Assembly: GCF_014842995.1 (NCBI RefSeq)
Contig: NZ_JACYXL010000003.1
Location: 496,001-560,000, forward strand
Direction of reading: 5' to 3'
Source: Rhodanobacter sp. 7MK24
GTDB taxonomy: Bacteria; Pseudomonadota; Gammaproteobacteria; Xanthomonadales; Rhodanobacteraceae
DNA: 64,000 nucleotides
Shown: positions 1,642 to 30,185 of the stretch, piece by piece
Layout of the letters: each line of letters begins with the position of its first letter
Numbering within the stretch: position 1 is the stretch's first letter
Made by a program: the position numbers and the translations under genes
The notes under the pieces: model-generated
The model's input: only the letters and a program-made list of their open reading frames with translations
The model's database searches: none
What the model was told of the DNA's origin: nothing

Positions 1642-2877
1642 TCACACGCTGCGCGTGGCTACCACGGGCGGTACGCGCGCAGCGCGTAGCGCGGGCGAAA
1701 GCACCGAAAGCTGCCCCAGTACCCACAATACCAAGCCTCCCAGGGGCAGATACCAGAGCGGCAAGCGCGGCAATTCGTAGCGCATCATCAGCAACAGATT
1801 GAGCAGCACAGCCAGCACCGCGCCAAGCACGATGCCCATCGTGACGATCAGTAAATTCTCAGCCTGAAAATAGCGCCGGATGTCGCCGCGCGTGGCACCA
1901 ATAGCGCGGCGGATACCGATGCTGCGCGTACGTTGCTGTACCCAGAAATTCGCCAGCCCAGTGATACCCAGTGCAGTAACGAACAAGAGGCACAGCGCCG
2001 AAGCAACGAGCAGGCCGACCATGGTGGTGTCGCGCTGGAAATAAGCGTCGCGGATCTGCGAATACGTCTGCACCTGATCCTGGTCGATGACGCGTGTGGG
2101 ATCGACCTTGAACAGCGCTGCCTCCGCTGCCTTCAGGATGCGCTCGCGATCACCCGGCGCCCCACGCAGCACATAGACTTCGCTGGTGCTGTCCGGCAAC
2201 TGCGGCGTGATAACGCTCAGGTAGCCATCCCCCATGCCATGCAACTCCGGACGCGCCAACGTAGCGACAACACCAACCACCTGCAAGGCATTGCCGCCCA
2301 GAATCATCACCTTACCGAGTGCATCCTGCCCCGGATAAAGCTTGTCGGCCAGCTCGCGACTGATGATCGCGACGGACGGATTGTTTTTCGCCGTGTATTC
2401 CCCCGGAAGGAAATCGCGCCCCTCCACCAGTTGCAGCCCCAGCGTGCGGAGCAGGCCGGGTGTGCCATCGTAAAAACTGGACAACGGGCAATCGCCCCCC
2501 TTGAACAACGATGACGTGCGCATCGCCTGGTCGAACACCTGCCGACTGGGGCACGCGGGGCCAAACGAGTCGTTACGGTTCAACGGCAACGCACTGCTCA
2601 CCGCCACGGCGGATTCCACGCCTGGAATCGCACGCAATGCCGCGAGATCGGTTTCATGCAATGCCTGCGCGTTCTGCTTGGTGTCGGTGCCGATGCTCTG
2701 GATCGTGGACAGCCCGCTTTCAGCAATCCCCGTAGGCATCAAAACATCCGCGATGCGGTTGGCGATCATGAAAGCCACGTTGCAGACGATGGCGCAGGTA
2801 AGCGCCACCTGCAGCGTCAGCAGCATGGCCGTGAGTTTGTGGTGGCGCAGGGTAGAAAGAATCGGTCGAAGCTGCAT
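1642..2877 (-). CDS. MacB/FtsX-type ABC permease, B type, pair 9
   Basis: The product is 411 residues. One transmembrane helix lies at about 15-38 after the start MQLRPILSTLRHHKL. A periplasmic MacB-PCD-like domain follows to about 280, then three C-terminal helices of the FtsX permease domain with the coupling motif GIRRAIGATRGD. No nucleotide-binding domain is present, so it needs a separate ATPase; the only one in the cluster is at 28034-28759. It starts 12 bases after the A-type partner and ends with the family tail PPVVATRSV. It is closest to the B gene of pair 7. The two share a pair of periplasmic cysteines about 25-30 residues apart (CPSRQ and DCPLS here). The substrate is unknown. 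Confidence 0.9.
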   Translation of the reverse strand: MQLRPILSTLRHHKLTAMLLTLQVALTCAIVCNVAFMIANRIADVLMPTGIAESGLSTIQSIGTDTKQNAQALHETDLAALRAIPGVESAVAVSSALPLNRNDSFGPACPSRQVFDQAMRTSSLFKGGDCPLSSFYDGTPGLLRTLGLQLVEGRDFLPGEYTAKNNPSVAIISRELADKLYPGQDALGKVMILGGNALQVVGVVATLARPELHGMGDGYLSVITPQLPDSTSEVYVLRGAPGDRERILKAAEAALFKVDPTRVIDQDQVQTYSQIRDAYFQRDTTMVGLLVASALCLLFVTALGITGLANFWVQQRTRSIGIRRAIGATRGDIRRYFQAENLLIVTMGIVLGAVLAVLLNLLLMMRYELPRLPLWYLPLGGLVLWVLGQLSVLSPALRAARVPPVVATRSV

Positions 2878-2889
2878 GGCGATCTCCCC

Positions 2890-4200
2890 TCAAAGTGTCT
2901 TGAGTTGCAGCGCGGGCACCACGCGGCAGGCCCGCCACGCGGGAAGCAAGCCAGCCATCGTGCTGGCGAAAACCGCCAACGCCAGCGTCGTCAACAGCAT
3001 CGACGCGTCCATGCGCGCGATGTGGGCGTAGTCGTCGGGTCTGTGCCGCACGCTCCACAGCCCGAGTTCCGAGATCAGCACACCAAGCACGCCGCCGGCC
3101 ACGCCAATGACTGCCGACTCGATGCCGAACTGCACGAAGATGTCACGCCGCCGCGCACCCAGGGCGCGGCGTACGCTGATCTCGCCGCTGCGGCGCAAGA
3201 ACTTCGCCAGCAGCAAGGCCAAGACATTCACCATGCACACGAGCAGGAAGCCCAGCGCCAGCCACATTTGCAGGCGCACGTCGCCGGGCACGAGGTTTTC
3301 GTGCGCCAGCCAGCCCATCAGGCTGTACAACGTGGCATCGGTCGCCGGGCGCTGAAATCGGCCCAGCGATTTCTGCTCTGCGGAGTAGTCGATCAGGAAC
3401 CGCTTGTACGCAGCCGCCTGCGTGGGTCCATCGAGTTGCACCCAGAACTGCAACCATGCAGTGGTTGCGCTGCGCATATCGCCATTGGGCATTTTTCCCC
3501 AACTGTCCACGCTACCGTCGGTGTTCAAATTCAAATCCACTGCCGTGGACAACGGCAGGAAGAACAGGTCGCGGTCGGCGTACCTCTTGGCCCTCTCGTC
3601 GGCATAGAACAAGGGCGACGGATGCCAGTCGGTAGTTATGCCAACCACGCGAAAATCGTTTTCACCCAGCCTGACCATCTTGCCGATGGCATCGGTGTCG
3701 CCGAACAGCTTGCGCGCAAGCGAATCGGCCAGCACCACCACATGCGCGTTGGCCGAATCCTCAGCCTCGTTCCAACTACTGCCATGCTCGAAAGGCACGC
3801 CGAACATGGCGAAGAAATCCACCGTGGTGTAGCGGCCGCTCACGTAGAACGTCCGCAAATCCGCAGCCGCTGGACGCACCAGCAAATAACCCGCCGCCAG
3901 CGCCGCCTGCCGCCGGGCACGATGCGCCTTGAGCAAGGCCATCGCATCCGGCCAGGTGAGGTGGTCGGAGGGATCATAACCATTGGCGAAAAAGTTGCCC
4001 TTGAGCGGCAACGGATTGAGATGCGGCACATACAGCTGTGCGCTGCGCCCAGGCATCGGATCGTCGGTCATCACATGCAGCACCGTGAGCATGGTCATCG
4101 ACGCTCCGATACCCAATCCGATCGCCAGAACCATCAGGCCGGTGAGGATCGGCGTGCGCTTGAGGCTGCGCCAGGCCAGGTCGAGGTAATAGCCAAACAT
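2890..4200 (-). CDS. MacB/FtsX-type ABC permease, A type, pair 9
   Basis: The product is 436 residues from the start MFGYYLDLAWRSLKR at 4200. An upstream in-frame start is possible, but this one matches all A-type paralogs. It has an N-terminal helix at about 18-42, a periplasmic domain with the A-type signatures ARKLFG and FFMFGVPF-like segments, then three C-terminal helices with the motif VRRALGARRRDI. It has no ATPase domain. It is strikingly similar to the A gene of pair 7 (both share MTDDP, PGRSAQLY, LTWPDAMALLKAHR), whereas pair 8 between them is more distant. The periplasmic cysteine pair seen in six other A genes is missing here. It precedes its B partner by 12 bases. Confidence 0.9.
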   Translation of the reverse strand: MFGYYLDLAWRSLKRTPILTGLMVLAIGLGIGASMTMLTVLHVMTDDPMPGRSAQLYVPHLNPLPLKGNFFANGYDPSDHLTWPDAMALLKAHRARRQAALAAGYLLVRPAAADLRTFYVSGRYTTVDFFAMFGVPFEHGSSWNEAEDSANAHVVVLADSLARKLFGDTDAIGKMVRLGENDFRVVGITTDWHPSPLFYADERAKRYADRDLFFLPLSTAVDLNLNTDGSVDSWGKMPNGDMRSATTAWLQFWVQLDGPTQAAAYKRFLIDYSAEQKSLGRFQRPATDATLYSLMGWLAHENLVPGDVRLQMWLALGFLLVCMVNVLALLLAKFLRRSGEISVRRALGARRRDIFVQFGIESAVIGVAGGVLGVLISELGLWSVRHRPDDYAHIARMDASMLLTTLALAVFASTMAGLLPAWRACRVVPALQLKTL

Positions 4201-4310
4201 ATGTCGCTCCCTTTCGCTTTCCCACGGGAATGCACCGTGCGGTCGATGGCTCATAGCTTCGATCTAGCGCCAGTGCACTCGCGCATTGGCACGCTCCTTC
4301 TAGCCGACCT

Positions 4311-5537
4311 TCATACCGACCGCGTCGCCACCACCGGTGGCACGCGCGCAGCGCGCAATGCGGGCCCGAGCACGGCGAGCTGGCCTAGCAGCCACAGCAC
4401 GACGGCGCCCGTAGCCAGCCACGCCAGCGGCATGTGCGCCAACTCGTAGCGCTGCATCAGCCACAGGTTCAATCCGACCGCACCGAGCGAGCCGATCACG
4501 ATGCCGGCGGTGACGATCAACAGGTTCTCGAACTGGAAGTAGCGCAGGATGTCGCGCCGCGTGGCACCGATGGCGCGGCGGATGCCGATCTGCCGGGTGC
4601 GCTGCTGAACCCAGAAACTGGACAGACCCACCACGCCAAGCGCGGTCAGTGCCAGCAGGCAGCTCGTGACCACCACCAGCACCCAGATCATGGCGCGGTC
4701 GCCGTGGTAGAAGTCCGAGACGGTATCGGAATAGATGTGATCTTCGGTGACCATGCGCAGTGGATCGATGCGGGTGAGCACCTCGGGCAAATCGCGCTTT
4801 ACCGCACCGCGCGCACCCGGCTTTACACGCAATACGTAAAGACCGCCCCGTACCATGGCCACAGGCAGGATGAAGCTGCGGTCGATGCCTTGCGCATTGT
4901 TGATTTGCGGATTGAGCAAGTGGTCCACCACGCCTACCACTTGGAGGGCATCCTTACCGTTGCTGTCTTGCCAGAAGGTCTTCCCCAGTGGATCCTGGCC
5001 CGGCCACAGTTCTTCGGCCAACGTACGCGTGATGATGGCTACCGTCGGCGGCAGCTGACCTTTCTTGAACGGATCATAGTCAACGTGTTCCTTCGGCAGG
5101 AAGTCGCGTCCTTCTGACACCTTGATGCCAAGGGTGCGGAGCATGCCGGGCGATCCCATGTACTCGACGACGTTGTCCAAACTGCTTCCCTTGTCGCCAG
5201 ATCGGCGATACACGGATCTACTGAACATGTCGCCGGACAACGGCAACCCGCTGGTCGTCACCACCGATTCGACACCGGGCATGCCTTGCAACGCGGCCAT
5301 ATCCGCAGCCGTATCGTCTCCTGCCTTGCCTCCCTGTCCCAGATCGAGACCACTGGTTTGGGCCCACACCAGTTCGTTGTCGGATACACCGGTAGGAGCG
5401 CGTATGGCCGCCACGCGATCTCCTATCAGAAACAATGCGTTGGTGACGATGGCGCAAGTCAGCGCGATTTCCAGCGCTACTAGAACAACGGTGGTCTTGT
5501 GGTGCTTCAGTGCGGAAATGATCGGATGCATGGTCAT
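4311..5537 (-). CDS. MacB/FtsX-type ABC permease, B type, pair 8
   Basis: The product is 408 residues, starting MTMHPIISALKHHKTT at 5537; a start at the second Met (5531) is equally possible. The layout is one helix, a periplasmic domain of about 240 residues, and three C-terminal helices with GIRRAIGATRRDILRYFQ. The start lies only four bases after the stop of the A partner, which suggests translational coupling. The tail is VPPVVATRSV. Unlike the B genes of pairs 7 and 9, it lacks the two periplasmic cysteines. The substrate is unknown, and transport needs an external ATPase. Confidence 0.9.
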   Translation of the reverse strand: MTMHPIISALKHHKTTVVLVALEIALTCAIVTNALFLIGDRVAAIRAPTGVSDNELVWAQTSGLDLGQGGKAGDDTAADMAALQGMPGVESVVTTSGLPLSGDMFSRSVYRRSGDKGSSLDNVVEYMGSPGMLRTLGIKVSEGRDFLPKEHVDYDPFKKGQLPPTVAIITRTLAEELWPGQDPLGKTFWQDSNGKDALQVVGVVDHLLNPQINNAQGIDRSFILPVAMVRGGLYVLRVKPGARGAVKRDLPEVLTRIDPLRMVTEDHIYSDTVSDFYHGDRAMIWVLVVVTSCLLALTALGVVGLSSFWVQQRTRQIGIRRAIGATRRDILRYFQFENLLIVTAGIVIGSLGAVGLNLWLMQRYELAHMPLAWLATGAVVLWLLGQLAVLGPALRAARVPPVVATRSV

Positions 5538-5541
5538 GGCC

Positions 5542-6855
5542 TCACTGCGTCTTGAGCAAACGGGCCGGTACGATGCGGCAGGCGCGCCACGCCGGAAACA
5601 AGGCCGCCAGCAAGGTGGCACACACCGCAAGTGCAATGGTGGCGCCGAGCATCGCCCCATCCATGTGCGCCAACGCGGCGTATTCCACCGGCTGCTGACG
5701 CACGATCCACAAGCCGAGGGCTGCAAGAAGCAGCCCGGCGACACCACCTGCCGCTCCCACCAGTGATGCCTCCACCAGCAATTGCGCGAACACCGCGCGC
5801 TTCGACGCCCCCATCGCGCGACGCACGGAAAGCTCACCACCGCGGCGCAGGAACTTGACCAGCAGCATGGCCACCGTGTTGACCAGGCATACCAGCAGGA
5901 AGCCCAGCGCCAGCAGCGTTTGCAATTGCACGCTGCCGGGCAACACATGGTTGTAGTCCAGCCATGCCATCACATCACGCAGGCGTGTGTTCGGCGACCG
6001 CGCAAAGCGGCCGAGTGCTTTTTGCTGTTCCGAATAATTGACGAGGAACTCGCGGTAGGCGGCGACCTGCGCTGGCGTGTCCAGCTCCACCCAGAGAGTC
6101 ATCCAGCCGCAAGCAGTCGCCTTGCGCATGTCGTTGTCGTCAGGAAAATATCCGCCACCCCAGCAAGTGATGCTGTTGTAGGTACTGAGTTTCAAATCCA
6201 GCCCGGCATGCAAGGGCAGATACACCTGTTCCGGTTGGTTGGTGTAGTTGCCCATGCCCAGATCGTAGAAATGCGGCGATGGGTTCCATTGGTCGATCAC
6301 GCCAACGACGCGGAAGGCGTACTTGCCAAGCTGCAACATCCGGCCGACGGCATGTGGCGTACCGTAGAGCTTGTCGGCCAGATCACGCGCTATCACCGCT
6401 ACGCGGGAACGCTGCTCGTCGTCGCGTGCCGTCCAGCCACTGCCGTCAACGAAAGGCACATCGAACATCGGAAAAAAATCTGCTGTGGTGGATCGCAGTG
6501 GAACGAAAAAGGCGTGCGAAGCGCCTTGTGGCGGAATCACCGTCACGCGCCCCCCGCTCATCGCAACCTTGTGCACACCCTCACTGGCATGCAGCAGGTT
6601 CATCGCATCGATCCATGTCAGTTGATCCGGCGGATCGGGTGTCGTGTTGTCGCTGTCCATGGGACGCGGATCGACCTGCGGATAGAACAGTTGTCCGCTT
6701 CGCCCCGGTATCGGATCGGCCGTCATCACGTGCAGCACGGTGATCATCGTCATGCTCGCGCCGATACCCAGTGCGATGGCCAGCACCATCAACGCGGTCA
6801 GCACCCTGTTGCGCTTGAGGCTGCGCCATGCCAGGTCGAGGTAGTAGCCGAGCAT
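5542..6855 (-). CDS. MacB/FtsX-type ABC permease, A type, pair 8
   Basis: The product is 437 residues from the start MLGYYLDLAWRSLKRNR at 6855, which matches the paralogs better than the longer open frame. It has an N-terminal helix (LTALMVLAIALGIGASMTM), a periplasmic domain, and a C-terminal FtsX domain with VRRAMGASKRAVFAQ. It carries the cysteine pair of the A family (TCWGGG and ACGWM, about 18 residues apart) just before the WVELD segment, a likely periplasmic disulfide loop. A CCTCTCCC/GGGAGAGG hairpin separates it from pair 7 upstream. Confidence 0.9.
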   Translation of the reverse strand: MLGYYLDLAWRSLKRNRVLTALMVLAIALGIGASMTMITVLHVMTADPIPGRSGQLFYPQVDPRPMDSDNTTPDPPDQLTWIDAMNLLHASEGVHKVAMSGGRVTVIPPQGASHAFFVPLRSTTADFFPMFDVPFVDGSGWTARDDEQRSRVAVIARDLADKLYGTPHAVGRMLQLGKYAFRVVGVIDQWNPSPHFYDLGMGNYTNQPEQVYLPLHAGLDLKLSTYNSITCWGGGYFPDDNDMRKATACGWMTLWVELDTPAQVAAYREFLVNYSEQQKALGRFARSPNTRLRDVMAWLDYNHVLPGSVQLQTLLALGFLLVCLVNTVAMLLVKFLRRGGELSVRRAMGASKRAVFAQLLVEASLVGAAGGVAGLLLAALGLWIVRQQPVEYAALAHMDGAMLGATIALAVCATLLAALFPAWRACRIVPARLLKTQ

Positions 6856-6879
6856 TCCTGTCTCCCTCAATCGCACCGT

Positions 6880-6900
6880 CCTCTCCCACCGCGGGAGAGG
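6880..6900. repeat. inter-pair hairpin CCTCTCCC/GGGAGAGG
   Basis: There is a perfect 8-base inverted repeat with a five-base loop (accgc) in the 52-base gap between pair 7 (stop at 6908) and pair 8 (start at 6855). In the transcript it would form a compact GC-rich stem. It has no T-tract, so it may be an RNA processing or stabilising element rather than a strict terminator. The same core recurs at several other pair boundaries. Confidence 0.7.
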
Positions 6901-6907
6901 AGAAAAA

Positions 6908-8140
6908 TCACACGCTTCTCGTCGCCACCACCGGTTGCACCGCCGCCGCACGCCGCGCAGGCGACAGCACCGAAAGCTGGCCCAGCGCCCACAGTGCCAG
7001 CGCGCCGACCGGCAGGTACCACAATGGCAGGCGTGGCAGTTCGTACTGCGTCATCAGCAGCAGGTTCAGACCGATGGCCAGCAGTGCGCCGATCGCCACG
7101 CCGGCGGTAACGATCAGGAAATTCTCGGCCTGGAAGTAGTGCAGGATGTCGCCGCGCGTTGCACCGATGGCACGACGGATGCCGATGCTGCGCGTGCGCT
7201 GCTGCACCCAGAAATTCGCCAGCCCGGCGATGCCCAGCGCGGTAACGAACAGCAGGCCTAGCGCGGAAGCGATCAGCAGGCCGATCATGGTGGTGTCGCG
7301 CTGGAAGTAGCCGCGGCGGATCTGCGTGTAGGTCTGCATCTGCTGGGGATCGACGATGCGGTTGGGGTTGGCCTGGAGCAACGCGGCTTCGGCGGCCGTG
7401 AGCACGCGCTGGCGATCCTGCGGCGCGCTGCGCAACACGTAGGTGACGCCGGTGTCGTCGGGCCGTTGCGGCCAGATCATGCTGTCGGCGTCGACGCCCG
7501 GCTTGCGCAAGGCAGGCCGCAGCAGGGTATCCACGATGCCGACGATGCGGATGAAATTGTCGCCGTCGTACATGTTCTGCCCCAGCGCCGGCCGCCCCGG
7601 ATACAGCTTCTCCGCCAACGCACGCGTGACGATCGCAACCGCGGGCTTGCCCTTGCTCACGTATTCGCCTGGCAGGAAATCGCGCCCTGCAACGAGATGC
7701 AGGCCCAACGTGACGATCAATCCCGGCGTACCGTCGTACAAGGCAGGTTGCACGCAGCCGCTGCCATCGATCGAATTGAGCTGTATCGCCCGATCCAGCG
7801 CCTGCTTGCTGGGGCAGATGCCACTGGACGACTCGTTCTGGTTCAGCGGCAACGAATAACTGACCGCCGCGGCGGAACGCACCCCGGGAATCGCGCGCAA
7901 GGCCGCCAGATCAGTCGTTTGCCGCGCCTGCATGTTTTCGCCTTTTCCGATGCCGACGCTGTGGATCACCGACAGTTCGTTCTCAGCGATACCGGTTGGC
8001 ACGCTGATGCGTTGCACGCGCTTGGCCACCATGAAGGCCACGTTGCAGACGATGGCGCAGGTGAAGGCCACCTGCAGGGTCAGCAAGGTGGCGGTGAGCT
8101 TGTGGTGGCGCAGGGTGGAAAGGATGGGTCGGATTTGCAT
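6908..8140 (-). CDS. MacB/FtsX-type ABC permease, B type, pair 7
   Basis: The product is 410 residues, starting MQIRPILSTLRHHKLTA. The first helix contains FTCAIVCNVAFMV. The periplasmic domain has a cysteine pair (GICPSKQ and SGCVQP) shared with the B gene of pair 9. The C-terminal FtsX domain has GIRRAIGATRGDILHYFQAE. The tail is QPVVATRSV. Unlike most pairs, where A and B are about 10 bases apart, 142 bases including a REP-like element lie between it and its A partner, so coupling is probably lost. Confidence 0.9.
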   Translation of the reverse strand: MQIRPILSTLRHHKLTATLLTLQVAFTCAIVCNVAFMVAKRVQRISVPTGIAENELSVIHSVGIGKGENMQARQTTDLAALRAIPGVRSAAAVSYSLPLNQNESSSGICPSKQALDRAIQLNSIDGSGCVQPALYDGTPGLIVTLGLHLVAGRDFLPGEYVSKGKPAVAIVTRALAEKLYPGRPALGQNMYDGDNFIRIVGIVDTLLRPALRKPGVDADSMIWPQRPDDTGVTYVLRSAPQDRQRVLTAAEAALLQANPNRIVDPQQMQTYTQIRRGYFQRDTTMIGLLIASALGLLFVTALGIAGLANFWVQQRTRSIGIRRAIGATRGDILHYFQAENFLIVTAGVAIGALLAIGLNLLLMTQYELPRLPLWYLPVGALALWALGQLSVLSPARRAAAVQPVVATRSV

Positions 8141-8162
8141 GGTCAGCCCCGTGATGCATTCG

Positions 8163-8254: not shown

Positions 8255-8282
8255 ACATGAGAAATGGCGATGCTTCGCGCCA

Positions 8283-9593
8283 TCACATCGCTTTCAGTTG
8301 CAGCGCCGGCGGCACGCGGCAGGCACGCCACGCCGGCAGCAGGCCGGCCAATACGCTGGCGACGACGGCGAACATGAGCGTGCCCAGCAGCATCGATGCG
8401 TCCATCTGCGCCAGTCTGGCGTAGTCGTCCGGGCGCTGGCGGATGCTCCACAAGCCCAGCTGCGCAATGGCCACGCCCAGCGCGCCACCGGCCACGCCGA
8501 TCAGCGCCGACTCAATGCCCAGCTGCACGAAGATGTCGCGCCGCCGGGCGCCCAGTGCACGGCGCACGCTGATCTCGCCGCTGCGGCGCAGGAACTTCGC
8601 CAACAGCAGCGCCACGATGTTGACCATGCACACGAACAGGAAACCCAGCGCCAGCCACAGCTGCAAACGCACGTCGTTGGGCACCAGATTCTCGTGCGCC
8701 AGCCAGCCCATCAGGCTGTACAGCTTCGCGTTGGTCGGCGGCCGCTGGAAACGACCCAGCGCCTTTTGCTGCGCGGAGTAGTCGACAAGGTACTGCCGAT
8801 ATGCCGCGATCTGTGCCGGCGTATCCAGTTGCGCCCAGAACTGCAGCCAGCTCATGTTCGCGCTGGTCAGCGCAGTCTCGTCGCCCTTGGCCCAGCCAGA
8901 CCGATTGCCGCTGACCTGCAACTTCTGGCTCACCGCCGCCGAGAGCGGCAGAAAGAACAGATCGGCGTCGCTGTATTGGGTGCCGGTCTGGTCGGCATAG
9001 AACAGAGGCTTCGGCACCCAATGGGCGGCGACGCCGATCACACGGAAGTCGTGCTCGCCCAAGCGCACCGTCTGGCCGACCGCGTTGCCCGTACCGAACA
9101 ACTTGCGCGCCAGCGTTTCGGTCAGCACCACCACTTGCGCTGCGGCCGCATCGTCTGCCGCGCTCCAGCCGCCGCCGCGCTCGAACGGCACGCCGAACAG
9201 CGCGAAGAAGTCTGCTGTGGCGTAGCGCCCGTTCACATAGAAAGGACGCAGATCGCTGCGACCCGGCCACAGCAGCAACGAGCCGCCCGCCATCGCCGCC
9301 TGCCGCACGCCGCGATGGGCTTTGAGCAGCGCCATCGCATCGGGCCAGGTCAGATCGTCGGTGGGATTGGGACTGTCGTCTCTTAGTTTGTACTCAAGCG
9401 GCAGCGGATCGAGATGCGGCGTGTACAGCTGCGCGCTACGCCCCGGCAGCGGATCGTCGGTCATCACGTGCAGCACGGTCAGCATCGTCATCGACGCGCC
9501 GATGCCGAGCCCGGTTGCCAGCACCATCAGGCCGGTGAGGATCGGCGTGCGCTTCAGGCTGCGCAGTGCGAGATTCAGGTAGTAACCGAGCAT
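8283..9593 (-). CDS. MacB/FtsX-type ABC permease, A type, pair 7
   Basis: The product is 436 residues from the start MLGYYLNLALRSLKRTP at 9593. It has an N-terminal helix, a periplasmic domain with the A-type segments ARKLFG and DYSAQQKALGRFQ, and a C-terminal FtsX domain with VRRALGARRRDIFVQ. It lacks the periplasmic cysteine pair seen in six A paralogs, like the A gene of pair 9, its closest relative. It is the first permease downstream of the hydrolase gene; the gap of 82 bases carries no obvious promoter. Confidence 0.9.
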   Translation of the reverse strand: MLGYYLNLALRSLKRTPILTGLMVLATGLGIGASMTMLTVLHVMTDDPLPGRSAQLYTPHLDPLPLEYKLRDDSPNPTDDLTWPDAMALLKAHRGVRQAAMAGGSLLLWPGRSDLRPFYVNGRYATADFFALFGVPFERGGGWSAADDAAAAQVVVLTETLARKLFGTGNAVGQTVRLGEHDFRVIGVAAHWVPKPLFYADQTGTQYSDADLFFLPLSAAVSQKLQVSGNRSGWAKGDETALTSANMSWLQFWAQLDTPAQIAAYRQYLVDYSAQQKALGRFQRPPTNAKLYSLMGWLAHENLVPNDVRLQLWLALGFLFVCMVNIVALLLAKFLRRSGEISVRRALGARRRDIFVQLGIESALIGVAGGALGVAIAQLGLWSIRQRPDDYARLAQMDASMLLGTLMFAVVASVLAGLLPAWRACRVPPALQLKAM

Positions 9594-16092: not shown

Positions 16093-16100
16093 AAGAGCCG

Positions 16101-21307: not shown

Positions 21308-21321
21308 GATACAGCGAAAGC

Positions 21322-22575: not shown

Positions 22576-22585
22576 GGCGCTCTCC

Positions 22586-23911
22586 TCAGTTGCTCTTCAG
22601 CTGCCACGCGGGTTGCACGCGCGAGGCTCGCCAGGTGGGATACAAACCGGCCAGCACGGTGGCGATCACCGCCACCACCAGGGTCATGGCCAGCAGCGAC
22701 ACGTCCAGCCTCGCCAGCGCGGCGATGTCCTTCGGCAGCACCCAACCCACGCAGGCCACGCCCACGCCGGTGAGCAGCAGGCCCAGCACGCCCCCCGCCG
22801 CACCGACCATGCCCGCCTCGGTGAGGAACTGCGCATACACCGCCGCGCGCGGAGCACCCAGCGCGCGACGCACGCCGATCTCGCCGCTGCGGCGCAGGAA
22901 CTTCGCCAACAGCAGCCCTGCCGTGTTGACCAGGCAGACGATCAGCAGGCCCAGCGCCACCAGCAGCGACACCTTGGTGTCGTCGGGCACCACGTGCTCG
23001 GAGTCCAGCCATGCGGGCAGGTCGCTCAATTTGTATTTGGGCGCCCAGTTGAAGCGGCCGGCCTGTTGCTGCTGGCGCATGTAGCCATCGAGGTAGTTCT
23101 TGTAGCTGTCGACGTCGGTGGCGCTGTCCAGCTCCACCATGTAGGCGATCCATACGCAGCTCGAATGCTGCAGGCCGATGAAGCCCGCTTCCTTCGGGAT
23201 CTCGTTGCAGTTGGTGTTGCCGTTGTTGGGCATGCCCACGTCGATGGCGGTATTGAACGGCAGGAACACATCCTCGGCGCCGTCGCCGACGAAGCCGCCG
23301 GTGTTCACCACGTCGTAGTAGCGCGGCTGCGGATTCCAGCGGTCGACCACGCCGACCACGCGGTAATCCTTGCCCTCGATGTTGACGCTCTTGCCCACGC
23401 TGTTGACGTCGCCGAACAGCTTCTGGTTGAGCTTGTCGCTGAGCACCAGCACGTGCGAGCGGTTCTGGTCGTCCTGCGCGCTCCAGCCGCTGCCGTACTT
23501 GAACGGCGCCTCCACCATCGGGAAGAACTCGCTGAACACGGCATGGCCGCTGACGTTGATCGGGTGCTTGGCGGCATCCGCCGGCACCACCGACGGCGAC
23601 ACCTGGTACATCGCCGACTGCAGCTTGCCGCGGTGGTCGCGCATCAATGCCAACGCGTCGGTGTAGTCGAACGCATCGGAGATATCGGTATAGCCACCCT
23701 TCTTGCGGCTGTCCGGTCCCCAGATGTCGAGCTGGGGCACGAACAGCCGGGACGACTTCCACGGGATCGGATCGCCCGACACGGCGCGGAACACTGACCA
23801 CGTGGTCATCGATGCGGCCACACCGAAGCCGATGGCGAGCACCATCAGCAGGGTGAGGCCGGGGCTGCGTTTCAGGCTGCGCAGTGCCAGGTCAAGGTAG
23901 TAGGCGAACAT
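22586..23911 (-). CDS. MacB/FtsX-type ABC permease, A type, pair 2
   Basis: The product is 441 residues from the start MFAYYLDLALRSLKRSPG at 23911; the longer open frame upstream is non-coding in style. The N-terminal helix is LLMVLAIGFGVAASMTT. The periplasmic domain has a cysteine pair (NCNEIP and SCVWIAYM). Three C-terminal helices carry GVRRALGAPRAAVYAQ. It differs from pairs 3 to 9 by FAYY in place of FGYY and SVFRAVSG after the first helix, like pair 1. Confidence 0.9.
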   Translation of the reverse strand: MFAYYLDLALRSLKRSPGLTLLMVLAIGFGVAASMTTWSVFRAVSGDPIPWKSSRLFVPQLDIWGPDSRKKGGYTDISDAFDYTDALALMRDHRGKLQSAMYQVSPSVVPADAAKHPINVSGHAVFSEFFPMVEAPFKYGSGWSAQDDQNRSHVLVLSDKLNQKLFGDVNSVGKSVNIEGKDYRVVGVVDRWNPQPRYYDVVNTGGFVGDGAEDVFLPFNTAIDVGMPNNGNTNCNEIPKEAGFIGLQHSSCVWIAYMVELDSATDVDSYKNYLDGYMRQQQQAGRFNWAPKYKLSDLPAWLDSEHVVPDDTKVSLLVALGLLIVCLVNTAGLLLAKFLRRSGEIGVRRALGAPRAAVYAQFLTEAGMVGAAGGVLGLLLTGVGVACVGWVLPKDIAALARLDVSLLAMTLVVAVIATVLAGLYPTWRASRVQPAWQLKSN

Positions 23912-24000
23912 TTCGTTCTCTCCGGGGTTTGTCTCCTCCTGTTCATCAGGAGAAGACGTTTGCCTTCCCTCCCCTGCAGGCAGGCGAGGGATCAAAAACG

Positions 24001-25242
24001 TCACACCGAGCGCGTCGCCTCGACCGGCGACACGCGCGAGGCGCGCAGCGCCGGCGCCAGCACGGCACCCTGTCCCAACAGAATCAGCACGAGCACACCA
24101 ACGCCCACGTAGGCCATCGACATGGGACTCATCGCGAAGCGGGTCACCGTCCACAGGTTGAAGGCGATCGCGAGCACGGTGCCAAGTGCCACGCCCGCCG
24201 CACTGATGAGGAAGTTCTCGGTGAGGAAATACGTGAGGATGTCGCGTTGCCGTGCGCCCAGTGCGCGTCGCACGCCGATCTGCTTGCGGCGCTGGCCGAC
24301 CCAGAAGCTGGTGAGCCCCACGATGCCCGCGGCGGTGATCGCCAGCAGTACCACGCAGATGATGCCCATCAGGATCGCCATGCCGCGGTCGCTGTCGAAT
24401 ACCTTGCGACGGATGGTGGCGTAGTCCTGGATGCCGTCCTTCGGGTCGATGATGCGCATGCGACTTTGTGCATACAGCGCCTGCGGTGCTTCGCGCATCG
24501 CAGCGGCGAGCTGACCGGGTTTGGCGCGCACCATATAGAAGATGCCGCGCGAATCGTCTGCCCGCAGCGGCCAGATCAACGCCTGCCCGGCATAGCCGTT
24601 GCTGTATTGATCCACGCCCTGGCGGTGCAGCGGATCGACGATGCCGATGATGGTGCTCGGCGTGGGGCTCATCGCATAGAAGCTCTTGCCCAGCGCATTG
24701 CCATCGGGAAACAGCTTGTCGGCGAGTGCCTTGCTCACAATGGCCGCGGCTGGGGTGATGGATTGCTGGGTGCCCATCACCATCACCTCGTCGGGCCGGA
24801 AATTGCGCCCGGCGATGAGTCGCAGGCCCAACGTGTCGATGTAATGCTCGTCACCGGTATATACCGCGGAATCGGTGACCGGCTTGGGCTGGTCAGGCGT
24901 CAGCGTGACGAAGTTGTCCCAGCCGCCGCCCGACAGCGGATAGCCGCCGCTGACAGGCGTGGCGTCACGCACAGCAGGCAGTTGCCGCAGCGCAAGCAGA
25001 TCGGCTTTCACCTGTGCATCGACCTGCGGCGTCGGCCAGTCGGCCGCCCACTGGTTGCGGATCACGAAGACGCTAGATTCATCTACGCCGCTGACTTCCG
25101 ACAGGTTGGTCAGCCGCTGGTGGATGATGAACAGCGCATTGCACACGATGGCCAGCGTCAGTGCGATCTGCAACGCGATCAGCAAGGTGCCCGCCTTGTG
25201 CCGGCGCAGCGCGACGAGGATGGGCCTGATCTGGATGTTCAT
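24001..25242 (-). CDS. MacB/FtsX-type ABC permease, B type, pair 1
   Basis: The product is 413 residues, starting MNIQIRPILVALRRHKAGT. It has one helix (LQIALTLAIVCNALFII), a periplasmic domain with LRLIAGRNFRPDEV, and three C-terminal helices with GVRRALGARQRDILTYFLTE. The tail is VSPVEATRSV, a slight variant of the usual PPVVATRS. It follows its A partner by ten bases. The gap to pair 2 (23912-24000) contains an imperfect TCTCCT/AGGAGA repeat. Confidence 0.9.
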   Translation of the reverse strand: MNIQIRPILVALRRHKAGTLLIALQIALTLAIVCNALFIIHQRLTNLSEVSGVDESSVFVIRNQWAADWPTPQVDAQVKADLLALRQLPAVRDATPVSGGYPLSGGGWDNFVTLTPDQPKPVTDSAVYTGDEHYIDTLGLRLIAGRNFRPDEVMVMGTQQSITPAAAIVSKALADKLFPDGNALGKSFYAMSPTPSTIIGIVDPLHRQGVDQYSNGYAGQALIWPLRADDSRGIFYMVRAKPGQLAAAMREAPQALYAQSRMRIIDPKDGIQDYATIRRKVFDSDRGMAILMGIICVVLLAITAAGIVGLTSFWVGQRRKQIGVRRALGARQRDILTYFLTENFLISAAGVALGTVLAIAFNLWTVTRFAMSPMSMAYVGVGVLVLILLGQGAVLAPALRASRVSPVEATRSV

Positions 25243-25252
25243 GGCGTCTTCC

Positions 25253-26566
25253 TCAGCTCGACTTCAATTGCCAGGCCGGCTGCACGTGCGCCGCGCGCCA
25301 CGCCGGATAGAACGCCGCAAGCACGGTGGCGACGATGGACAGGGCAAACGTGAGCGCCACCAGCGACGGATCGAGCTTCGCCAGCCTCGCGATCTCGGGC
25401 CGGAATAACACGCCCACACCACCCACTCCCACCGCAGTGAGCAGCAAGCCGAGCACGCCGCCGGCCAGGCCTACCGTGCCGGCCTCGATCAGGTACTGGG
25501 TATAGATTTCGCCGCGCGTTGCGCCAAGGGCACGGCGCACGCCGATTTCGCCGGCGCGGCGCATGAACTTTGCCAACAGCAAACCGATGGTGTTAACCAG
25601 GCAGATCAGGAAGAAGCCCAGCGCCACCATGAGCGATATCCGGCTTTCCGGGGGCACCACCTGCTGGTAGTCCATCCACTGCGCCACGTCGCGCAGGCGC
25701 ATGTTGGGCGCCCAGCCGAAGCGGCCTGCACGCTGCTGCTCGGCGGAATAATTGGTTAGGAAACTGCGGTAACTCGCGACTTCCGCCGGGCTGTCCAATT
25801 CCACCCATGGCGAGATCCACACGCAATTGCTTTGCGTGTAATCCGTCCAATTTGTGAAGCTGAGCTTGCCGCGGCAGCTGTTGCGGGCACCGGTGTACAT
25901 CTGCAGGTCCAGTGCACGGCTGAACGGCATGTAGAAATCGGGCTCTTCGGCGAAATCGTCGTTGTCGAACAAGTCGTAGAAGCGCGGTTGCGGGTTCCAA
26001 TGACTGGCGACGCCCACGACACGATAGTCATGGCCGCCGAAATTAATTGTCCGCCCCACGCTGTTCGCACCGCCGAACAGTTTTTGGTTGAGGTCCGCAC
26101 TGATGACCACGTCGGCCGCGCGCGACTCGTCATCCTGCGCACTCCAGCCGCCGCCATAGCGGAACGGCACTTCGAACATGGTGAAGAAGTCGCTGCCCAC
26201 GGCGTAGCCACTCGCATTCAACGGCAGATCGCGATTGGCATCCGGCATCACGGCAAGCTGCACCTTGTACAGCATGGTCTGGCGCTTCGCCGCATGCGCA
26301 TGCAGAAGCGCTACCGCGTCCACGTAATCCAGCGCATCAGGTGGCTCGTTGCCCTTCAGGTTCTGCTGCGGCCCCCAACTGTCCACCTGTGGGGTGAACA
26401 ATTGCGCCGACTTGTCGGGAATCGGATTGCCCGATACCGCGCGGAACACGGAGTACGTGGTCATCGACGCAGCCACGCCGAAGCCGATTGCCATCACCAT
26501 CAACGCGGTAAGCGCGGGATTGCGGCGCAAGCTGCGCAGGCCGAGTTGGAAGTAATAGGCAAACAT
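25253..26566 (-). CDS. MacB/FtsX-type ABC permease, A type, pair 1
   Basis: The product is 437 residues, starting MFAYYFQLGLRSLRRNPA with AAGGAG seven bases upstream. The N-terminal helix is LTALMVMAIGFGVAASMTT. The periplasmic domain has the cysteine pair (SCRGKL and NCVWISPW). The C-terminal FtsX domain has GVRRALGATRGEIYTQ. It is the first permease of the array, directly downstream of the outer membrane channel gene. Its closest relative is the A gene of pair 2. Confidence 0.9.
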   Translation of the reverse strand: MFAYYFQLGLRSLRRNPALTALMVMAIGFGVAASMTTYSVFRAVSGNPIPDKSAQLFTPQVDSWGPQQNLKGNEPPDALDYVDAVALLHAHAAKRQTMLYKVQLAVMPDANRDLPLNASGYAVGSDFFTMFEVPFRYGGGWSAQDDESRAADVVISADLNQKLFGGANSVGRTINFGGHDYRVVGVASHWNPQPRFYDLFDNDDFAEEPDFYMPFSRALDLQMYTGARNSCRGKLSFTNWTDYTQSNCVWISPWVELDSPAEVASYRSFLTNYSAEQQRAGRFGWAPNMRLRDVAQWMDYQQVVPPESRISLMVALGFFLICLVNTIGLLLAKFMRRAGEIGVRRALGATRGEIYTQYLIEAGTVGLAGGVLGLLLTAVGVGGVGVLFRPEIARLAKLDPSLVALTFALSIVATVLAAFYPAWRAAHVQPAWQLKSS

Positions 26567-26590
26567 GCCCTCGCTCCTTGGTTGATTCCT

Positions 26591-26637
26591 CTCTCCCGTG
26601 GGAGAGGCCCGTTGCTTCTCTCTCGACTGCGAGAGAG
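26591..26637. repeat. two tandem hairpins between channel gene and permease array
   Basis: CTCTCCC-gt-GGGAGAG at 26591-26606 and CTCTCTCG-actg-CGAGAGAG at 26618-26637 lie in the 79-base gap between the TolC-like gene and pair 1. They match the boundary hairpins further along the array and mark the junction of the fixed exporter module with the permease series. Confidence 0.7.
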
Positions 26638-26645
26638 CTTTGGCG

Positions 26646-27989: not shown

Positions 27990-28033
27990 GGATGAGACTC
28001 GCGATTGATGGATACGTGGACGGCCATGCGCGC

Positions 28034-28759
28034 TCAGGCCTGACTGGCGTTGCCGCGGGCGGCGGCCACGCTGGCGTGGAAGCGCGGATCCTCGGACAGG
28101 TCCACCACCTGGCCGTCGATGATGTGCACGTTGCGCTGCGCGCGTGCTGCCAGTTCAGGATCGTGCGTCACCATCACGATGGTGGCGCCGTCGCGGTGGA
28201 TTTCCTCCAGCAGCTCCATCACGCCACGTGCCATCTGCGTGTCGAGGTTGCCGGTGGGTTCGTCGGCGAGCAGCAGACGGGGCGAGCCGGCCAGTGCACG
28301 CGCGATCGCCACGCGCTGCTGCTGGCCGCCGGAGAGCTCGGCCGGGTAATGCTTGAAGCGCGAGGCCAGGCCCACGCGCTCCAGCGCGTCCATGATGCGC
28401 TGCTTGCGCTCGGGCGCCTTCATGCCGCGGTAGCGCAACGGCACTTCCACGTTGTCGAACACGTTGAGGTCGGGGATCAGGTTGAACGCCTGGAAGATGA
28501 AGCCGATCTTCTCGTTGCGGATCTTCGAGCGTGCGTTGTCGTTGAGCTGGCTCACCTCGATGCCGTCGAGGTGGTACTCGCCTCCGGTGAAGGTTTCCAG
28601 CAGGCCGGCGATGGTGAGGAAGGTGGTCTTGCCCGAGCCGGACGGACCAGTGACGGCGACGAACTCGCCTTCCTTCACGTCGATATTGAAATCGCGCAGC
28701 GCGTAGGTCTCCACCACTTCGGTGCGGTAGACCTTGGACAGGTGGGTCATCTTCAGCAT
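28034..28759 (-). CDS. ABC transporter ATPase, MacB/LolD type
   Basis: The product is 241 residues, a stand-alone nucleotide-binding domain. It has Walker A GPSGSGKTT at 38-46, a Q-loop near FIFQAFNLIPDL, the signature LSGGQQQRVAIARAL, Walker B LLLADEPTGNLD and the switch His in VTHDPE. The family energises MacB, LolCDE and BceB type permeases without moving substrate through a channel of its own. It is the only ATPase among 18 permease genes lacking one, so it likely serves them all. It lies between the membrane fusion and channel genes on the same strand. Confidence 0.95.
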   Translation of the reverse strand: MLKMTHLSKVYRTEVVETYALRDFNIDVKEGEFVAVTGPSGSGKTTFLTIAGLLETFTGGEYHLDGIEVSQLNDNARSKIRNEKIGFIFQAFNLIPDLNVFDNVEVPLRYRGMKAPERKQRIMDALERVGLASRFKHYPAELSGGQQQRVAIARALAGSPRLLLADEPTGNLDTQMARGVMELLEEIHRDGATIVMVTHDPELAARAQRNVHIIDGQVVDLSEDPRFHASVAAARGNASQA

Positions 28760-28800
28760 GGTTCACGTTCCTCGGTGGTGGTGGATGGTTCTTTGAAGCC

Positions 28801-28905
28801 CCTCTCCGCGAGAGAGGTTGGGGGAGAGGATTCGGCTGGAACGAGACGTTGTGCTCCGCCCGTACCCTCTCCCGCCCCGCGGGCACCCTCTCCCGATGGG
28901 AGAGG
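28801..28905. repeat. CCTCTCC-type hairpins between fusion protein and ATPase genes
   Basis: The 154-base gap upstream of the ATPase gene contains a perfect CCTCTCCC-gat-GGGAGAGG hairpin at 28887-28905 and a second imperfect CCTCTCC/GAGAGAGG repeat near 28801-28819. They belong to the same class as the hairpins between permease pairs. No promoter is obvious in the gap. Confidence 0.65.
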
Positions 28906-28913
28906 AAAAGCCC

Positions 28914-30185
28914 TTACCTGCTAATCGCTACGCGCTGCGCGCCCTTGAAGCTGTCGGTACCGGAGATCACGATGCGGTCGCCTTCCTTCAGGCCCTGCAG
29001 GATCTCCACCTTGTCGATGCTGCTTTCGCCGACGCGGATCGGAGTCTTGGTGGCGATGCCGTCGGTGACGACGTAGGCATAGCTGCCGCCGGACTCGTCG
29101 ACGAAAGAGCCACGCTGCACGGTAAGCACGTTGCTGCGCTGGTCGAGCAGGATGCGCACGGACAGGCGCTGGTTCTGGCGCAGCTCCTTCGGCGTGGTGC
29201 CTTCGAAGCGCACGCGGGCGGCCACTTCGCCGTTCACCACTTCGGGCGAGATCGCGCTGACCAGGCCCTTCCAGGTGGTGCCGTTGCCGCTGATCTCGCC
29301 ACCCATGCCGATGGCAAGGTCGCGCGCGAAGCTCTCGGGCACCTGCACTTCCACTTCCAGCGCGGTGAGGTCGATCACGCTGAGCAGTTGCGCGTCCTTC
29401 GCCACCGTGGCCACCGGCGCAATGAACAGCTGGCCGACCTGGCCGTCCACCGGCGACTTCACGTTGAGGTTGTCCACCTGGCGCTGCAGGTCCTGCACCA
29501 CCAGCATCTGGTTGTCGTGCGCCAGCTTCTTCGCCTGGATGTTGAAGTTCAGGCTGTCGTTGTTCATGCCGAGATCGGCCTTGGCGTGGTCCAGCGCGAT
29601 GCGCGCCTTTTCCAGATCGTCCTTGGCCTTGTCGACCGCGACTCCGGTGGAGGCGCCGGCGGCGTAGGCCTTCTGCTCGCGGTCGAGGTTGTTGGCGGCG
29701 CTCTTCGCGTCGATCTGCGCGTTGTCGTAGGCCTTCTGCAGGTCGCCGCGCTTGGTACGGGCGTCCACCTGCGCCTGCAGGTAGTCAACCTGCATCCCAT
29801 CAGCCTTGGACTGTTCCTGCGCCAGCTTGTTGCGCAGCTCGGGGCTGTCCACCACGGCCAGCACCTGGTTCTTCTTCACCACGTCGCCGGCGTGCACCAG
29901 CAGCTTCACCGCGCCGCCGTAGGTGGCGTAGAGCGTGGGGCTGTTCGCCGCCACCACCTTGCCCTCGGCGGCGATGTCGCGCACGAACGGCCCGCGCTCG
30001 ACGGTGGCGAAGGCCAACCGCGACGCGCTCACCGAGGCATCGGCGGAGAAGAGGCGAAGGATGCTTGGCATGACGAACGCCAGCACCACCAGCAAGGCCA
30101 CGCCACCGCCAATGAACAGCAGGCGGCGCTTGCGGTTGGGCTTGACCTCGACGATGCGGTCTTGCGCGGAAGTGTCGCGGATCAT
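28914..30185 (-). CDS. periplasmic membrane fusion protein (HlyD/MacA type)
   Basis: The product is 423 residues. It has a cytoplasmic N-terminus rich in Arg and Lys and a single anchor helix at about 22-45 (LLFIGGGVALLVVLAFVM). A split lipoyl domain (YATYGGAVKLLVHAGDVVKKNQ), a long coiled-coil hairpin of roughly 100-230 with many Lys, Glu and Gln, and beta-barrel and membrane-proximal domains (VQVPESFA, VRILLDQRSNVLTV) follow. It is the adaptor linking inner membrane permease and outer membrane channel. It is the first gene of the array, with a GGGGA ribosome site and a sigma-54 promoter about 45 bases upstream. The ATPase gene follows. Confidence 0.95.
   Translation of the reverse strand: MIRDTSAQDRIVEVKPNRKRRLLFIGGGVALLVVLAFVMPSILRLFSADASVSASRLAFATVERGPFVRDIAAEGKVVAANSPTLYATYGGAVKLLVHAGDVVKKNQVLAVVDSPELRNKLAQEQSKADGMQVDYLQAQVDARTKRGDLQKAYDNAQIDAKSAANNLDREQKAYAAGASTGVAVDKAKDDLEKARIALDHAKADLGMNNDSLNFNIQAKKLAHDNQMLVVQDLQRQVDNLNVKSPVDGQVGQLFIAPVATVAKDAQLLSVIDLTALEVEVQVPESFARDLAIGMGGEISGNGTTWKGLVSAISPEVVNGEVAARVRFEGTTPKELRQNQRLSVRILLDQRSNVLTVQRGSFVDESGGSYAYVVTDGIATKTPIRVGESSIDKVEILQGLKEGDRIVISGTDSFKGAQRVAISR

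Follow-up and report, generated by a model that had tools for sequence, protein, structure and literature searches.

A putative MacB-like export system of Rhodanobacter sp. 7MK24 and its relatives in which one ATPase and one adaptor may be shared by many permease pairs

MacB, the type VII (mechanotransmission) ABC transporter of MacAB-TolC, works as a homodimer and carries its ATPase in the permease chain. LolCDE transports lipoproteins and is not known to have an adaptor, YbbAP-TesA of E. coli has one permease and no known adaptor or TolC, and the group II ECF systems are vitamin importers with another fold. To our knowledge, acidobacterial genes of the "duplicated orphan permease" family (ADOP; TIGR03434) have no neighbouring ATPases. 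LolCDE is described as a MacB-type permease heterodimer seated on the dimer of a separate ATPase (PMC8277102), YbbAP-TesA as a MacB-class permease with a hydrolase partner (PMC12646458), and the group II ECF system of L. delbrueckii as one module that serves eight S-components (PMC7755397); large ADOP sets, with 28 and 33 copies, are reported for two Dyadobacter genomes (PMC11573002).

The 64,000-nucleotide stretch of the Rhodanobacter sp. 7MK24 genome analyzed here (the window) contains 18 permease genes, all on the minus strand between 1642 and 26566. They form nine pairs, in each of which a B gene is transcribed first and an A gene second, and genes for a membrane fusion protein (MFP; the adaptor), an ATPase, and a TolC-like channel lie upstream as the head of the array (Table 1). 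A reading of the sequence alone (the sequence-only reading) had described nine A/B pairs with one ATPase, one MFP, and one TolC-like gene on one strand; this description stands, except that it overlooked the hydrolase gene between pairs 6 and 7. At its 3' end, the array is followed by a gene for an NtrC-type regulator and then, outside the window, by a kinase gene. The permeases are 401 to 441 residues long with the B3 start placed at 21260 (446 residues for B3 from the upstream start), and all 18 frames are open. Neither half of the array contained a promoter-like site (means of shuffled sequences, 2.2 and 1.7). Terminator-like sites came to 17 in one half, with 10.2 (SD, 2.4) in shuffled sequences, and to 6 in the other half, with 7.6 (SD, 2.9) in shuffled sequences.

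Table 1. Features of the array and its 3' flank
Feature	Coordinates	Strand	Basis
MFP, periplasmic adaptor (HlyD/RND_mfp type), 423 aa	28914..30185	-	Pfam HlyD_D23/HlyD_3 and NCBIfam RND_mfp above cut-off
ATPase (MacB/LolD/DarD-like NBD), 241 aa, sole ATPase of locus	28034..28759	-	ABC_tran; Walker A at 38, LSGGQ at 142
TolC-like outer-membrane channel, 447 aa	26646..27989	-	OEP domain; NCBIfam type_I_sec_TolC, 293 bits (cut-off of 225 exceeded)
Permease B1 (N half of ADOP)	25253..26566	-	TIGR03434 positions 7-401
Permease A1 (C half of ADOP)	24001..25242	-	TIGR03434 positions 411-801
Permease B2	22586..23911	-	Family alignment, pairing
Permease A2	21322..22575	-	Family alignment, pairing
Permease B3 (start not certain; a longer frame extends to 21293)	19953..21260	-	ORF, family alignment
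Permease A3	18707..19942	-	Family alignment, pairing
Permease B4	17341..18648	-	AlphaFold2 model, pLDDT 86.6, MacB fold
Permease A4	16101..17330	-	AlphaFold2 model, pLDDT 89.9, MacB fold
Permease B5	14742..16046	-	Family alignment, pairing
Permease A5	13476..14681	-	Family alignment, pairing
Permease B6	12120..13424	-	Family alignment, pairing
Permease A6	10891..12108	-	Family alignment, pairing
Inserted alpha/beta-hydrolase (S33, proline-iminopeptidase-like), 386 aa, GHSWG at 165	9676..10836	-	Pfam Hydrolase_4/Abhydrolase_1; signal-like hydrophobic N-terminus
Permease B7	8283..9593	-	Family alignment, pairing
Permease A7	6908..8140	-	Family alignment, pairing
Permease B8	5542..6855	-	Family alignment, pairing
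Permease A8	4311..5531	-	Family alignment, pairing
Permease B9	2890..4200	-	Family alignment, pairing; TIGR03434 7-400
Permease A9	1642..2877	-	Family alignment, pairing; TIGR03434 410-801
NtrC-type (sigma-54) response regulator	215..1570	-	Pfam Response_reg, Sigma54_activat, HTH_8
Kinase after the NtrC-type regulator, just beyond the window edge	L009:10424-11809		HAMP, HATPase_c

All 18 proteins can be aligned end to end as permeases, which leaves no space for an ATPase domain. Scans of the same genome detected FtsX (PF02687) in all 18 and MacB_PCD (PF12704) in 15 (all except A3, A6, and A7); in the full Pfam run, which covered B1 and A1, both domains scored above cut-off in both proteins. 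As in type VII ABC permeases, four transmembrane segments are combined with a periplasmic core domain and a C-terminal FtsX domain. MacB was the best fold match for AlphaFold2 models of A4 and B4, and short conserved helices in the single-chain models (B, 337 to 345; A, 315 to 323) are candidate coupling helices. In a scan of two B and two A permeases against the 803-position ADOP model, B matched the N half and A the C half, in agreement with the gene order, each as a half match of 161 to 183 bits compared to the 622.3 bits set for the two-domain chain. Because B and A each correspond to one half of this fused family, the pairs are best read, at the level of sequence, as heterodimers.

Like ADOP genes, the genes described here have both halves in N-C order and occur in many copies per genome, and the same genome and three relatives also carry arrays of fused ADOP genes that are accompanied by an adaptor and by one ATPase or two. 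Unlike in ADOP, the halves are separate genes with scores far below the cut-off, a dedicated ATPase and adaptor are present, and some loci include TolC. Nor does the absence of a neighbouring ATPase hold as a family trait, as one ATPase heads each array, although most dispersed pairs (see below) lack one. The four scanned permeases scored 38 to 61 bits against MacB proper (cut-off, 966), with the best stretches falling within the model's permease portion, and 25 to 32 bits against the LolC/LolCE models (cut-offs, 362 to 473). The ATPase reached 219 bits for LolD (cut-off, 307.75) and 254.1 bits for DarD (cut-off, 375), its best NCBIfam model, and the adaptor reached 81.2 bits for DarC (cut-off, 450). 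As all these scores are below the cut-offs, membership in MacB, LolCDE, or the darobactin exporter was rejected.

The array nevertheless shares the MacB fold, the PCD and FtsX domains, the adaptor, and TolC with MacAB-TolC, but has a separate ATPase gene that is apparently common to many heterodimers. LolCDE likewise joins a MacB-type heterodimer to a separate ATPase but has one pair only, and the darobactin exporter DarBCD provides the best model for the ATPase and, with DarC, one of the models matched by the adaptor. YbbAP-TesA combines a separate ATPase with one MacB-class permease chain of ~800 residues, and its hydrolase partner has a parallel in the hydrolase gene of some arrays, which belongs to a different family. 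SmaCDEF of S. maltophilia, for which published passages on its expression in drug resistance were found, was considered as a possible known single-pair version. Group II ECF importers are analogous but unrelated in that one energising module serves many substrate-specific membrane subunits. Our literature searches found no description in print of a multi-pair system with a shared motor; the earlier claim that no such system is described must be qualified in that the halves belong to the known ADOP/MacB superfamily.

In all 41 family loci, we found the order MFP-ATPase-(TolC)-(B-A)n, with alternating B and A genes in equal numbers, one head ATPase, and n between 1 and 12, and the recurrence of this layout places that of the window beyond chance. 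Thus, the search for arrays with other pair numbers, which the sequence-only reading had called for, gave arrays of 1 to 12 pairs, each headed by one ATPase. In related loci of other families, n is mostly 1 which, together with the tree, suggests that the single-pair unit is likely ancestral; in the n = 1 loci examined, an ATPase of the array type adjoins B-A. The adaptor matched at E <= 1e-40 in 140 of the 147 family genomes. Among 80 named loci, which extend no more than 10 kb beyond the adaptor and supplied names and gene order but no values of n, five break the rule: A precedes B in L081 and L089, and the B frame is split in L090, L121, and L137. The B hits of G007 (12) and G008 (1) were left unclassified, and the G066 locus was not fetched (8 B hits, all in one 20-kb stretch behind its adaptor). 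G011, which is 85% complete, had no B match. ATPase distances at matched regulator distance were smaller for big arrays (0.138 versus 0.234), which has the expected sign; however, clade is confounded with array size and the adaptor is slower as well, and we dropped slower ATPase evolution as support.

G006 contains a 57-kb inverted copy of its own array that resembles an artefact, and this palindrome was excluded from all counts. This copy, together with the split B frames in 3 of the 80 named loci, could be taken to mean that the arrays are non-functional tandem amplifications or assembly artefacts. To this explanation, which is already contradicted, we assign a negligible probability: the paralogues of the window are 34 to 69% (A) and 41 to 71% (B) identical, so that assembly collapse does not account for them; arrays are present in single-contig genomes (e.g., G002, G012, and G164); and the open frames of the window are accompanied by dN/dS values well under 1. 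These values were 0 to 0.63 per region for B1 to B8 and A1 to A7, with orthologue comparisons that were non-reciprocal or below 75% identity excluded, which removed pair 9 and A8. dN/dS was 0.02 to 0.07 for the ATPase (four comparisons) and 0.10 to 0.76 for dispersed pairs (11 comparisons).

Among the 18 window proteins, the closest paralogues come from the same pairs in both the A and the B family (pairs 4/5 and 7/9), which indicates that pairs were duplicated as units. Within arrays, distances of A and B from the same pair correlated with r = 0.82, compared to 0.15 and 0.19 when A was matched to a neighbouring B. The nearest paralogues of A and B agreed in 5044 of 6259 cases (chance, 18%), versus 27% for mis-paired genes (chance, 20%); permease domains of <=150 bits were excluded before the pair counts and this test. 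Given the homology of A and of B from pair to pair and their position in one array, it is conceivable that any B combines with any A to give many pump types from 18 genes. However, the strong pair-specific co-evolution, the tight B-A spacing (median gap, 10 nt inside pairs and 67 nt between them), and the order B then A at 37 of 37 dispersed loci make such combinatorial pairing highly improbable. Across 201 family rows, mean column conservation was 0.82 to 0.83 in A segment 301 to 340 and 0.27 to 0.54 in the periplasmic blocks of A, in line with the earlier statement that membrane and coupling segments are conserved while periplasmic parts have diverged. This divergence would fit different specificities of the pairs.

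Outside the main arrays, we examined 38 B-A loci, i.e., 37 loci with 40 pairs in 18 genomes plus L162; ten further B hits outside arrays by position were not fetched (G070, 1; G076, 2; G081, 1; G116, 3; G144, 2; G162, 1). The flanks covered 4 to 8 kb, and within them 36 of the 38 loci had no ATPase match above 200 bits. Separate ATPases dedicated to such permeases, which the sequence-only reading had named as evidence against itself, were thus found at two loci (L187 and L162). The 200-bit line misses two MacB-class ATPases of the 7MK24 genome (197 and 185 bits), and at the 36 loci nothing fell between 171 and 200 bits; the 171-bit match, located 3.5 kb from the pair at L206, is read as FtsE. 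The lone pair of the 7MK24 genome (L012) is nearest to pairs inside arrays, with B/A identities of 78/68% (G003), 77/66% (G012), and 75/69% (G009).

One alternative is that the ATPase powers a single pair or a small number of them and that the rest are unpowered permease-like proteins serving as periplasmic receptors or decoys. Consistent with this, most dispersed pairs have no ATPase nearby, the CH2 segment of dispersed A is less conserved than that of array A (0.72 versus 0.85), an ADOP gene in G039 had no ATPase in the stretch examined, and the family is named "duplicated orphan permease" by RAST (PMC11573002) and ADOP by NCBIfam. CH1 of dispersed B is slightly below the outgroup (0.79 versus 0.82). 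Nevertheless, the CH1 coupling segment ranks with the most strongly conserved regions in array pairs and dispersed pairs alike (identity to consensus, 86% in array pairs, 85% in dispersed A, and 79% in dispersed B, with 43 to 55% in their periplasmic parts). Moreover, four of six fused-ADOP loci (G000, G018, G045, and G055) lie beside an adaptor and an ATPase, and G030 has an ATPase only, in an incomplete stretch. Finally, none of the seven genomes without an adaptor match had a B match, compared to at least one in each of the other 15 compared genomes. We therefore consider it unlikely that most pairs are unpowered.

Alternatively, dispersed or some array pairs could be served by housekeeping ATPases (LolD, FtsE, MacB-like, or the ADOP-array ATPase). 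Each of ten searched genomes has four to eight matches to this ATPase class at E <= 1e-45, and five of the ten have a second ATPase of 52 to 59% identity, which in genomes with a fused-ADOP array is a possible supplier for some pairs. The same search found one ATPase of the array type per genome (78 to 100% identity), all others being at most 59% identical; this includes the single-contig genomes G164 (12 B genes, 6 dispersed) and G012 (11 B genes, 3 dispersed). That the other listed ATPases are <=48% identical in G164 and <=44% in G061, with six and five dispersed pairs, respectively, argues against such a supply, as do the n = 1 loci with their array-type ATPase beside B-A and the lack of B in the genomes without an adaptor match, which ties B to the array head. 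Supply by other ATPases is, in our judgement, very unlikely. The single-contig genome G002 carries 10 B genes and an ATPase frame that is broken into two parts; if the break is real, this genome may run without the array ATPase.

The proposal that one ATPase is shared by many heterodimers is strongly supported by what the genome comparisons established, namely, the gene content and order of arrays with 1 to 12 pairs, the pairing and co-evolution of A and B, the constraint on them, dispersed pairs without ATPases, one such ATPase per searched genome, and the absence of B without the adaptor. On this basis, we regard it as probable that the genes encode a MacB-like (type VII) exporter in which one ATPase and adaptor are shared by many obligate B-A heterodimers, dispersed pairs included. 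With somewhat less assurance, we favor a genome-wide plug-in export system, in which the ATPase and adaptor serve interchangeable heterodimers, up to 12 per array plus scattered ones, and pairs are mobile specificity cassettes. In the proposed mechanism, each B-A pair would correspond to an ADOP permease split into two chains, would function only as a heterodimer, and would recognise cargo with its periplasmic domain. The ATPase dimer would bind any available pair at its conserved coupling helices and drive that pair, and the adaptor, plus TolC where present, would form the common exit duct. Pairs would behave as cassettes that are copied, swapped, and relocated, either inside the array or to other loci, from where they would keep using the array ATPase in trans. 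The NtrC-type regulator and the kinase may control at least the array.

If this is true, group II ECF importers would have a counterpart in export. Importers are already known to share an energising module; a MacB-class exporter in which one motor runs a dozen exchangeable heterodimers would alter the reading of "orphan" permeases, large ADOP sets elsewhere included. The natural series of 1 to 12 pairs, in arrays and dispersed, would allow the evolution of periplasmic specificity to be followed against an unchanging motor interface, and permeases that lack a motor of their own in clusters for antibiotic peptides might borrow a chromosomal one.

The cargo would most likely be peptides or other amphiphiles from the periplasm or the outer leaflet. 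Peptides appear likely from the neighbours at 3 of 37 dispersed loci, i.e., class III lanthipeptide synthetases at L179 and L187 and a C39-peptidase exporter at L194, and from the S33 hydrolase in some arrays. The hydrolase insert is also present in the arrays of G003, G013, G026, and G006, and 4 of 52 arrays, a minority, carry the gene. A search of the 7MK24 genome for a lanthipeptide synthetase gave weak kinase-type matches only, none above cut-off, and the window array is thus not tied to such a cluster. Some dispersed pairs sit beside BlaI/BlaR1 regulators.

The locus lies on the minus strand of the window (contig C31 of the strain's assembly, G000) and comprises genes for an adaptor (MFP), an ATPase and a TolC-like protein (OMF), followed by nine permease pairs and an NtrC-type response regulator; a kinase gene lies just past the window edge. 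In all nine pairs, B precedes A in the direction of transcription. The sequence-only reading had placed nine pairs behind a single ATPase, adaptor and TolC-like gene, and this layout stands, except that one gene between pairs 6 and 7 had been overlooked; it encodes a proline-iminopeptidase-type alpha/beta-hydrolase whose N-terminus is signal-like. The nearest named relatives of the adaptor are from Rhodanobacter, Fulvimonas, Frateuria, Dyella, and Luteibacter. The G+C content is 0.598 at positions 52001-56000 vs about 0.65 across the remaining window.

Among the 18 array permeases, FtsX was matched in all and MacB_PCD in 15. AlphaFold2 models of A4 (pLDDT 89.9) and B4 (pLDDT 86.6) had MacB of Acinetobacter as the best match, and the system is filed as belonging to the type VII ABC kind. 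Using NCBIfam, we found that the two B proteins scanned match the N half of TIGR03434 (the fused double-permease family ADOP; positions 7-401 and 7-400), and the two A proteins scanned its C half (positions 411-801 and 410-801). These four proteins score 161-183 bits; the ADOP cut-off is 622, and lower scores are to be expected of proteins that each represent one half only. A B-A pair is thus a split form of the fused double permease.

Fused forms are present in the same genome, in which a second related locus on contig C36 contains an adaptor, an ATPase, and four fused ADOP genes (scanning of one of them gave a score above the ADOP cut-off) together with an NtrC regulator and a kinase. Six fused-ADOP loci were examined. 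An adaptor accompanied by one ATPase or two is present in G000 and in the relatives G018, G045, and G055; the incomplete stretch from G030 includes an ATPase, and that read from G039 has an ADOP gene but no ATPase. The 40 kb read from G018 contains a run of ten ADOP genes behind a single adaptor and a single ATPase, with another ATPase (46%) 7 kb farther on. Five fused ADOP genes in G055 are flanked by two ATPases.

Sequence comparison indicates that the B-A pairs are real units. In the window, paralogue identities run parallel for A and B (69/69% for pairs 4 and 5; 67/71% for pairs 7 and 9). Within arrays, A and B distances correlated with r = 0.82 (605 comparisons; 215 pairs from 52 loci); in a mis-paired control, r was 0.19 for A vs the previous B and 0.15 for A vs the next B (442 comparisons each). 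In 5044 of 6259 comparisons, A and B of a pair agreed in their nearest paralogue from a different array (chance 18%); on mis-pairing, agreement was 27% (chance 20%). The median gap is 10 nt from B to A (201 pairs in 41 family loci) and 67 nt between successive pairs (160 gaps). In orthologues of B1-B8 and A1-A7, dN/dS per region was 0-0.63, with the highest dN usually in periplasmic parts; pair 9 and A8 were left out, having no orthologue passing the filter.

Arrays with different pair numbers were sought in related genomes by comparing the locus from 40 relatives with our own. The order MFP-ATP-(OMF)-(B A)n was found in all 41 loci, with equal numbers of A and B, n ranging from 1 to 12, and a single ATPase heading each array. 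A regulator follows the array in 38 of the 41 (not found in G022, G062, and G096). A kinase is present in 33, a count in which the stretches from G004, G019, G035, and G164 end at or shortly past the regulator; in G018, no kinase was found although the stretch extends beyond the regulator. In 14 loci outside the family (identified with the adaptor profile) or second loci, B-A adjoins the same head, with n = 1 in 12 and n = 4 in G048, while G453 has a second A match. Among 80 named loci, each covering 10 kb past the adaptor, five were irregular: at pair 3 of L081 and L089 (both Rhodanobacter), A precedes B, and the B frame is split in L090, L121, and L137. The adaptor was matched in 140 of 147 family genomes (E <= 1e-40) and in 15 of 299 phylum-wide genomes (E <= 1e-70). 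In a tree of adaptor and ATPase, n = 1 loci are basal and G031 (n = 1) is placed beside G164 (n = 6), which implies that arrays grow and probably shrink too.

Pairs also occur outside the arrays, a finding wider than the original claim. Using a B profile on 15 genus genomes and 21 other family genomes, we read all outside-array matches listed except those in G007 (12) and G008 (1). The resulting 38 loci include 37 with 40 B-A pairs from 18 genomes, in all of which A directly follows B on the same strand, and a second full locus (L162). With a related ATPase defined as scoring over 200 bits on the array-ATPase profile and flanks of 4-8 kb on either side, 36 of the 38 loci lack a related ATPase, while L187 (410 bits) and L162 have one. 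The 200-bit line sets this family apart well, the ADOP-array ATPase scoring 313 bits on the profile, but the own genome has two further MacB-class ATPases that fall below it (197 and 185 bits). The best match remaining among the 36 loci (171 bits, L206) looks like FtsE. The nearest relatives of the own genome's lone pair (L012) are inside arrays of G003, G012, and G009, so that this pair looks like a moved cassette. Other dispersed pairs appear to be old, e.g., those of L178 and L188 from two genera (87/88% identical; dN/dS 0.14-0.18). A BlaI-BlaR1-B-A layout is common to L177, L182, L192, L203, and L204 from five genera, placing an antibiotic-type sensor next to an ATPase-less permease pair; dN/dS in this group is 0.50-0.76 (two comparisons), which is a weak point.

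A separate motor dedicated to such pairs was also looked for genome-wide. With the array ATPase as the query, each of ten genomes had one ATPase of this type (78-100% identity), and all others were at <=59%. A relative at 52-59% is present in five of the ten and heads the fused-ADOP array in G000 and G018; it is missing from G164 (12 B genes) and G061 (9 B genes), where the others among the matches listed are <=48% and <=44%, respectively. None of seven genomes lacking an adaptor match (three of them <90% complete) had a B match, and the remaining 15 in this comparison each have at least one. With coupling helices placed based on a review (PMC8277102) and on short helices in the AlphaFold2 models, CH1 identity to the array consensus (A/B) was 86/86% in arrays, 85/79% in dispersed pairs, and 78/82% in the outgroup; the periplasmic parts gave 45/55, 43/51, and 38/46%, respectively. 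For CH2 of A, the value was 72% in dispersed pairs vs 85% in arrays. In the single-contig genome G002, the array ATPase is encoded in two overlapping frames rather than one; this is either a broken gene, which would count against sharing, or a sequencing error. The proposal that one ATPase is shared by many permease pairs is well supported by comparison, including 1-12 pairs per ATPase, ATPase-less dispersed pairs, and one such ATPase per genome searched. This is a real modular exporter family, in which one motor would serve many permease pairs, both in arrays and dispersed.

In the open-licence literature, we found no published account of a shared-ATPase B-A export system, and "duplicated orphan permease" appears in the literature searched as an annotation remark only. 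A shared FhuC ATPase seems to be the subject of one paper, going by its title (PMC10147376). For ECF importers, a shared module, as proposed here for an exporter, is known (PMC7755397).

Locations of selected features in the loci read (L), with genome (G) and contig (C) where given
Feature	Location	Remark
Fused-ADOP array of own genome	L010:4562-19379	
Long fused-ADOP gene runs in relatives	L164-L165, L168	
Split array ATPase frame	L018 (G002:C1:1066623-1067344)	
BlaI and BlaR1 (M56) directly before dispersed B-A pair	L203:4939-9932	
Class III lanthipeptide synthetase cluster containing B-A pair	L179:2625-9783	
Class III lanthipeptide synthetase cluster containing B-A pair	L187:5225-12960	
DUF885 protein (PF05960)	L029:12929-14749	same position in eight other arrays
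Inverted copy of whole array	L170-L172 (G006:C44:60000-119700)	

MacB-class pumps clear cargo from the periplasm via mechanotransmission, as described in the review PMC8277102. Peptides are our first guess for the cargo here, with about equal chances of being right or wrong. The synthetase adjoining the pair in L187 scores 643 bits, above the cut-off of 575, and this cluster also has its own ATPase copy; the synthetase in L179 scores 519 bits, below that cut-off. The dispersed pair in L194 adjoins a C39-peptidase exporter. Of 52 loci searched, 9 encode the DUF885 protein, its gene coming after the last permease and ahead of the regulator; none of the six sequences checked has an HExxH motif. 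The S33 hydrolase, which in the window lies between pairs 6 and 7, is present in 4 of the 52, and also in G006. The inverted array copy in G006 spans 57 kb and is 99.99% identical; its centre adjoins the ATPase, and the adaptor gene is absent from the stretch. This copy resembles an assembly artefact, yet it may be a genuine palindrome.
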